A DNA stretch of 32,367 nt from NCBI GenBank assembly GCA_023137595.1, contig JAGLOZ010000043.1, positions 1-32,367 on the forward strand, given 5' to 3'. The notes beneath the pieces are model-generated. The model did no database searches, was not told the DNA's origin, and worked only from the letters and a program-made list of their open reading frames with translations. Below, in pieces: positions 182 through 29,505 of the stretch. Within the stretch, counting starts at the first letter, position 1. Each line of letters starts with the position of its first letter. The position numbers and the translations under genes were made by a program. Source of the DNA: Minisyncoccota bacterium (GTDB lineage: Bacteria; Patescibacteriota; Minisyncoccia; JAHIHE01; JAGLIN01).

Positions 182-1114
182 ATGTTAAATAAAGAAGAGA
201 TAAATAAGATATTAAAAAAAGAAGATCTCAAAATTCTTAAAAGTTTGGGACAGAATTTTTTGATTGACAAAACGGTTCTTGATAAAATTGTTGAAGTTTC
301 TGATTTGAACAAGAAAGATGTTGTTTTTGAAATTGGTCCGGGATTTGGAACTTTAACGGAAGAGCTTTCAAAGAAGTGCGGGAAAGTCGTTGCAATTGAG
401 AAAGACAGAAAATTGGCGGAATTGCTGAAAAGTCGCTGGCTCCATAGTCCCGATAGGGTTGTGGAGCCTTTTGTGCAAAACGGCTCCACAGCCCTAAAAG
501 GACTATGGAGCCAGCGCGTAAAAAATACTGTGGTTATAAATGATGACATTCTAAGAGTTGATCTAAATGAATTTATAAACAATTATTCTTCTGACGGAAA
601 ATATAAACTTGTTTCCAATATTCCCTATTACATAACCTCGCCCATAATAAAGCTGTTTCTAGAAAGCGATGTTAAGCCGGAGCTTATAGTTTTGCTTGTG
701 CAAAAAGAGGTTGCAGAAAGAATTTGCGCTAAACCCGGAAAGCTAAGTATTCTTGCTCTTAGCGTGCAAGTTTATGGCGAGCCGGAAATAGCTGGTTTTG
801 TTGATAGATCCTCATTTTATCCTGAACCGAAAGTTGATTCAGCGATTTTGAAAATAAAAAATATCAGTAGAGACGCGATTATGGGTAAAGACGCGATAAA
901 TCGCGTTTCTACGAAAGATTTATTTAGAATTATAAAAATAGGCTTTTCATCAAAACGTAAGAAATTAGCAAATAATCTTTCCGCGGGCTTGCATATCAGC
1001 AGAACGCAGAGTGAGGAGCTCCTTTCGGAAGCGGGAATAAGTTCAAACGCTCGCGCGCAGGAATTAGGATTGGAAGATTGGAGGAAGCTGACGGAAATGA
1101 TTTTGCGCAGTTAG
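182..1114 (+). CDS. rsmA: 16S rRNA (adenine1518/1519-N6)-dimethyltransferase RsmA/KsgA, carrying two in-frame palindromic insertions
   Basis: LKSLGQNFLID, FEIGPGFGTLTEELS, VVAIEKD, SNIPYYITSPI and GFSSKRKKLANNL are RsmA motifs. The ATG at 182 is a better start than the TTG at 119 used by the ORF track. Confidence 0.95.
   Translation: MLNKEEINKILKKEDLKILKSLGQNFLIDKTVLDKIVEVSDLNKKDVVFEIGPGFGTLTEELSKKCGKVVAIEKDRKLAELLKSRWLHSPDRVVEPFVQNGSTALKGLWSQRVKNTVVINDDILRVDLNEFINNYSSDGKYKLVSNIPYYITSPIIKLFLESDVKPELIVLLVQKEVAERICAKPGKLSILALSVQVYGEPEIAGFVDRSSFYPEPKVDSAILKIKNISRDAIMGKDAINRVSTKDLFRIIKIGFSSKRKKLANNLSAGLHISRTQSEELLSEAGISSNARAQELGLEDWRKLTEMILRS
434..516. repeat. 83-bp palindromic element inside rsmA
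   Basis: cgctggctccatagtcc (434-450) is perfectly complementary to ggactatggagccagcg (500-516); inner arms tagggttgtggagcc / ggctccacagcccta pair almost completely. Confidence 0.93.
867..912. repeat. GTAGAGACGCGATT-type palindromic element inside rsmA
   Basis: gtagagacgcgatt (867-880) vs aatcgcgtttctac (899-912), one mismatch; inner acgcgat-aa-atcgcgt palindrome. Confidence 0.85.
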
Positions 1115-3531: not shown

Positions 3532-3558
3532 TAGAGACGCAGCACTGCTGCGTCTCTA
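3532..3558. repeat. TAGAGACGCAGCA palindrome
   Basis: tagagacgcagca-c-tgctgcgtctcta, perfect 13-bp arms. Confidence 0.88.
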
Positions 3559-16314: not shown

Positions 16315-16497
16315 CGTATGGAGAATGTGGCAAAGGTGAACGATCTTTTTGGCATCCCATTCAGCCAGTCTAAAACTTAGGGACCGTTCATAAATAACCG
16401 AATTATTCTGTGCGGGATGTGATGATGTAAAAAATCTTGTAAAAAGGTTCCACAGTCCGTGCGGGAAGACTATGAAACCAATGAAGGTGTAAAACAT
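16273..16497 (-). CDS. Possible small ORF of unknown function; its 3' end runs into the 16214-16314 repeat
   Basis: 74-aa ORF, 6 nt after the 16504-16656 stop; no family recognised. Confidence 0.3.
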   Translation of the reverse strand: MFYTFIGFIVFPHGLWNLFTRFFTSSHPAQNNSVIYERSLSFRLAEWDAKKIVHLCHILHTGCLGKFKPSLKFH

Positions 16498-29371: not shown

Positions 29372-29414
29372 TGTCAGGGTGTAGGAACGAGGTATTGCCT
29401 CGTTCCTACTGACA
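29372..29414. repeat. TGTCAG/GTAGGAACGAGG palindrome
   Basis: tgtcag-ggt-gtaggaacgagg-tattg-cctcgttccta-ctgaca. Confidence 0.85.
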
Positions 29415-29436
29415 CTTAATAAACGGCGATGATACT

Positions 29437-29465
29437 GTAGAGACGCAGCTGTGCTGCGTCTCTAC
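29437..29465. repeat. GTAGAGACGCAGC palindrome, second copy
   Basis: gtagagacgcagc-tgt-gctgcgtctctac, perfect 13-bp arms; matches 3532-3558. Confidence 0.9.
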
Positions 29466-29505
29466 AATGCGCGCGCATGTGTTCGTAAAACTTAATTTAT
29501 TCAAT

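Follow-up and report, generated by a model that had tools for sequence, protein, structure and literature searches.

The window analysed here is a stretch of 32,367 nt (contig JAGLOZ010000043.1, assembly GCA_023137595.1) from a Minisyncoccota bacterium, and the element in question is an 83-bp palindrome that lies in frame within rsmA, the gene for the 16S rRNA adenine dimethyltransferase. The rsmA gene occupies positions 182 to 1114 on the forward strand (PF00398, E 6.7e-49), and it is the only rsmA located in the genome by a whole-genome protein search. Translation probably begins with the ATG at 182 and would yield a protein of 310 residues; the frame is open from a TTG at 119. The host genome is a 1.1-Mb metagenome-assembled genome (MAG) of 104 contigs with a completeness of 94.5%.

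The palindrome and the RsmA loop

The palindrome at 434-516 is composed of two 39-nt arms (434-472 and 478-516), which are 87% complementary to each other and separated by a 5-nt spacer. Its predicted fold has an energy of -67.7 kcal/mol (z = -13.7), and none of the shuffled sequences was equally stable. Thus, the palindrome reported by an earlier reading of the sequence alone (the sequence-only reading) is real. Each arm is a copy of a unit of about 44 bp, TCGCTGGCTCCATAGTCCCGATAGGGCTGTGGAGCCTTTTTGCA, which resembles a repetitive extragenic palindromic (REP) sequence and folds into its own hairpin, so that the whole element is made of two REP units placed head to head. The limits set by the covariance model R1 place the left unit at 428-478 on the plus strand (67.5 bits, E 2.1e-18), with the head CGCT at 434-437, the stem at 438-468 and a tail running to TGCA. 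The inverted right unit spans 473-522 on the minus strand (66.1 bits, E 6.0e-18). On the evidence of the palindrome, its fold and these model matches, 434-516 is annotated, with no strand assigned, as a REPIN-like element (a REPIN being a REP doublet forming a hairpin).

The rsmA frame runs across the palindrome without a stop, with the reading ...SRWLHSPDRVVEPFVQNGSTALKGLWSQR..., and the insert corresponds to residues about 85-112. The earlier proposal was that about 30 residues had been added where RsmA proteins normally have a short link. Consistently, in solved structures of KsgA/RsmA this site comprises about 5 residues, compared with about 29 in the present protein, and alignment places about 27 extra residues here relative to relatives with an empty loop. 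The empty site that had been suggested as a check was found in eight relatives from the family and order, in which the loop is short or empty (G002, G003, G005, G006, G007, G008, G010 and G016). Four other relatives carry inserts of their own in the same loop. Those of G004 and G009 are palindromes (z about -8) whose sequences are unrelated; the G011 insert resembles a decayed form of the G009 insert, and the G001 insert is weakly structured. The G009 loop palindrome is itself dispersed across the genomes of genus g5. An AlphaFold2 model built with 43 sequences has a mean predicted local distance difference test score (pLDDT) of 90.2, and the insert lies between a helix (76-87) and a strand (116-120) with a pLDDT of 40-52, residues 90-102 being below 50. 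The insert is therefore modelled as a disordered loop of an otherwise confidently predicted fold, in favour of the surface loop that the sequence-only reading had suggested looking for. The tRNA-modification enzyme gene miaA presents the same pattern, in which one MiaA loop is filled by REP units in two genomes and by other palindromic inserts in several, with little or nothing there elsewhere.

The REP unit and the adjoining transposase genes

The REP unit belongs to a dispersed repeat family. A 91-bp probe gave 56 matches across many contigs of its own genome, mostly to one arm, and the covariance model gave 50 matches there at E<=1e-3, which settles the earlier question of further genomic copies. 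Copies were counted by genome searches and in selected stretches of MAGs, the latter forming a single score-ranked sample. Other carrier genomes hold 4 to 57 matches to the model each. The carriers are 11 of the 14 genomes of the host's family and one genome of another family in the same order; G006 and G017 have weak matches only. Across the class, 12 of 286 genomes carry the unit at E<=1e-6 and none of the others does. A search of a plasmid collection with the 91-bp element gave no match.

The secondary structure of the unit shows strong covariation. In the 13-bp stem, 97.9% of the cells are paired among 148 distinct copies, and 141 double changes are seen, compared with 37.5 by shuffling. 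The conserved features are a YGNT head (G 98%, T 79%), a T-G wobble, a bulged T and a TGCAA tail (TGC 87-100%). Inverted pairs on opposite strands account for 39 of the 102 sampled elements, the remainder being mainly single units.

The REP unit adjoins transposase genes. The host genome has five Y1_Tnp matches, and the PF01797 score is above the cut-off for the proteins from contigs C75 and C48. The C75 gene (L035:8779-9324) has a REP unit upstream and, in inverted orientation, downstream, and the C48 gene, which reaches the contig end, has one upstream. At every close homologue of the C75 protein (identity of at least 58%; in G000, G016, G009, G001, G012 and G007, two of them in the host genome) a REP unit adjoins the gene, whereas seven loci with distant homologues (identity of at most 44%) are all free of it. 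Inverted units stand on both sides of the gene at C75, G016:C63, G009:C85, G001:C61, G012:C34 and G007:C43, and on the upstream side at C48 and G009:C86, both of which are near contig ends. The HUH motif (NHLHL or NHIHC) is present in the close homologues, and those that are complete also have a YIHNN-type tyrosine motif. The gene is interrupted by an internal stop in G012, and its copies in G007 are either broken or truncated by a contig end.

Three other Y1 genes of the host genome, L038 (C65), L036 (C10) and L039 (C35), adjoin other palindromes (AAGGACTGTCC, GAAACCTGGTTTC and GTAGGGACAGGTTTGAAACCTGTCCCTAC). Judged from sequence, multiple families of REP units with their REP-associated tyrosine transposases (RAYTs) may exist side by side in this genome. 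In G004, a Y1 transposase gene (L288; G004:C41:2324-2954) holds an unrelated palindrome in frame (NEGDIRECRLRGGDYEEF), one that is akin to the palindrome occupying the G009 rsmA loop.

Copies within genes and other repeats

Within the host genome, REP units are also found in frame in a MurF-like ligase, a glycosyltransferase, MiaA, MurG and a long protein with lamin-tail-like repeats, names that were assigned by reading the sequences and not by a profile scan. Of 94 elements sampled from relatives with score as the sole criterion, 33 (35%) lie in frame in long open reading frames (ORFs) that continue through them, mainly in conserved genes, and 11 of these 33 are dimers. Pfam matches were obtained for 31 of the 37 element-bearing ORFs that were scanned, including MurB, MurD, MurF, MurG, FemAB, BacA, PheT, IleRS, RecG, PGI, MiaA, MiaB, YbeY, MFS, Wzy, abhydrolases and others. 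In some ORFs, among them those of the NlpC/P60 and cyclophilin proteins, the element is located next to the Pfam domain and outside it. Several insertion sites look shared, between genera in MurF, MurG, MiaA and PheT, and within one genus in MurD. An in-frame REP dimer is also present in a G004 ORF that bears an intein splicing domain (L252; G004:C40).

The minus-strand ORF across the rsmA palindrome encodes the peptide described by the sequence-only reading. The likeness of the peptides on the two strands arises because the palindrome is compound, its two REP units each forming a hairpin, and hence symmetric. The likeness stands, but the conclusion that insertion in either orientation would yield almost the same tolerated peptide is too narrow, other copies being read in other frames. 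Intragenic copies are read in various frames with at least four readings, for example RLHSPxGTMEP, GSTALxGLWSQ and APQPxGTMEP. Because several frames are used, the encoded peptide is not the thing selected, and a single peptide as the tolerated unit was rejected. The REP unit is open in five of its six reading frames, which makes it easier for a copy to survive within a gene in whichever frame it lands.

A second palindromic repeat, unrelated to the REP unit, is present in the rsmA frame at 857-913 on the plus strand, with its core ACGCGATAAATCGCGT at 891-906. This segment is about 8 residues longer than in the aligned relatives and falls within a low-confidence stretch of the AlphaFold2 model (pLDDT about 55). 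Intergenic copies of this repeat (GACGCGATAAATCGCGTTTCTACG) adjoin rsmA at 1112-1134 and 1176-1198, and others occur elsewhere in the genome. Additional perfect palindromes with GTAG-like ends lie between ORFs at 3532-3558, 29381-29409 and 29436-29466 (TGTAGAGACGCAGC/GCTGCGTCTCTACA and GTAGGAACGAGG/CCTCGTTCCTAC). A degenerate copy of the REP unit is located between ORFs at 16437-16489 on the minus strand (model R1, 34.9 bits, E 1.5e-7). An Rfam scan of the window returned two tRNAs and nothing else.

Origin and significance of the element

The most probable explanation, to which we assign a probability of roughly 85%, is that 434-516 is a REPIN, mobile by means of a RAYT-type Y1/HUH transposase and tolerated in rsmA as a loop. 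REP units would be recognised by this tyrosine transposase, whose own gene is bordered by inverted units, and the REPIN would be its non-autonomous derivative, presumably moved by the RAYT through single-stranded DNA. One copy would have landed in the rsmA loop, between the helix after the strand that binds S-adenosylmethionine and the following strand, with a length and phase that preserved the frame. It would persist because its translation yields an unstructured loop at the protein surface, without disturbance of the methyltransferase core, and the loop-bearing RsmA would presumably be active. In-frame copies in essential genes and exposed loops would be the survivors, other insertions having been lost.

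Several points weigh against this explanation. No movement of the element has been seen, and nothing shows that the loop-bearing protein is made or active. The genomes G004, G008 and G011 are rich in REP copies, yet no close RAYT is present in their bins. The canonical GTRG head is absent, YGNT standing in its place. The length of 83 bp is not divisible by three, the net gain of rsmA relative to relatives is about 81 bp, and the precise ends and target site of the element are undefined. No frame-broken copies were found by homology across the loci examined, although this test has little power.

The sequence-only reading had drawn a parallel with Rickettsia palindromic elements (RPEs), and the parallel holds for behaviour: RPEs are likewise in frame, tolerated and located in exposed loops (PMC3767692, PMC2229807). 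The parallel is no claim of kinship, and the element is a RAYT-associated REP dimer. Descent from an RPE family that moves by some other, unspecified route, the nearby RAYT genes being incidental, is improbable, given that the REP unit borders all the close RAYT loci and none of the distant ones, and is restricted to 12 of the 286 genomes of the class. That the insert is instead a functional domain or loop of RsmA, selected for protein function, would fit the preserved frame and the long inserts at the same place in sister genomes. However, those inserts are different palindromes with unrelated peptides, eight relatives have none, the modelled insert is of low pLDDT (40-52), and copies of this DNA unit are found in genes for unrelated proteins as well as in intergenic positions; such a role is very improbable.

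The fold of -67.7 kcal/mol together with covariation could also suggest a long RNA hairpin retained as a regulator of rsmA mRNA, acting on stability or translation pausing. The covariation is common to copies in every context, so that it mirrors selection on the mobile unit, and the element is absent from the rsmA of relatives, leaving little room for this idea. An artefact of assembly or binning, which the fragmented state of the MAG might invite, is hardly credible, since the same element is in frame in other genes of many other assembled genomes, and is short enough to be contained in one read.

The REPIN explanation places the element beside known systems. It shares with the REPINs and REP doublets of Pseudomonas, Stenotrophomonas and E. 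coli (PMC3116915, PMC2817692) a short hairpin unit, inverted doublets, dispersed copies, and a transposase gene with HUH and tyrosine motifs flanked by two inverted units. REPINs are described as extragenic and have a GTRG head; in the present family the head is YGNT, single units predominate and about a third of the copies are in frame in genes. Its host is Patescibacteria-like, a placement based on the size of the genome and on the relatives with which its RsmA groups, and not on a tree. The element is REPIN-like in function and organisation and is not filed as a canonical REP, because it lacks the GTRG head and its copies are partly intragenic. No report of REP/RAYT systems in Patescibacteria was found in the open-licence literature. 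IS200/IS605 transposases (TnpA, Y1) have the HUH motif, the catalytic tyrosine and hairpin ends in common with the present system, which differs in its dispersed REP units and its RAYT-like organisation.

In-frame intragenic REP units and dimers that add 20-30 residues to housekeeping genes have been described in Opitutus terrae, Thioalkalivibrio and Rickettsia conorii, where GTAG repeats flank RAYT genes (Di Nocera et al. 2013, PMC3733652). These GTAG/CGTC REPs resemble the present family in having units and dimers inside housekeeping ORFs and a flanked RAYT gene; their copies are mostly intergenic and differ in sequence and tag, whereas here several unrelated palindromes fill the same loops in sister genomes. 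The classic coding palindromes of Rickettsia are RPE-1 to RPE-7 (Ogata et al.; reviewed in PMC2229807 and PMC3767692). The present element shares with them in-frame and tolerated insertion into conserved enzymes, at solvent-exposed loops (modelled here for RsmA only) and at sites common to orthologues. Unlike the present unit, which borders RAYT genes, RPEs are 100-150 bp long, a comparison made by description and not by sequence. To our knowledge, no transposase has been identified for RPEs.

The novelty of the present case lies in its host group, in the large proportion of intragenic copies within a RAYT-linked family, and in loops that unrelated palindromes have filled repeatedly. A broader proposal, which we advance tentatively and regard as rather less than an even chance, is that several RAYT/REP families in this Patescibacteria lineage are inserters of protein loops. 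The same exposed loops in RsmA, MiaA and further housekeeping enzymes would be filled repeatedly and independently by unrelated palindromes; with units open in most frames, a large share of the elements would live translated, and the transposases or their targets would favour such sites.

REPs are extragenic by name, and in the sample of this RAYT-linked family about one-third of the copies are read in frame, within genes that serve peptidoglycan, tRNA and translation functions in very small genomes. The element thus joins the REPIN/RAYT literature with that on the protein-coding palindromes of Rickettsia and supplies a testable transposase for the spread of coding palindromes. Among the sister genomes, loops that are empty, filled in different ways or decayed amount to a natural experiment, which bears on the tolerance and loss of such inserts by proteins and on targeting versus a filter of selection.
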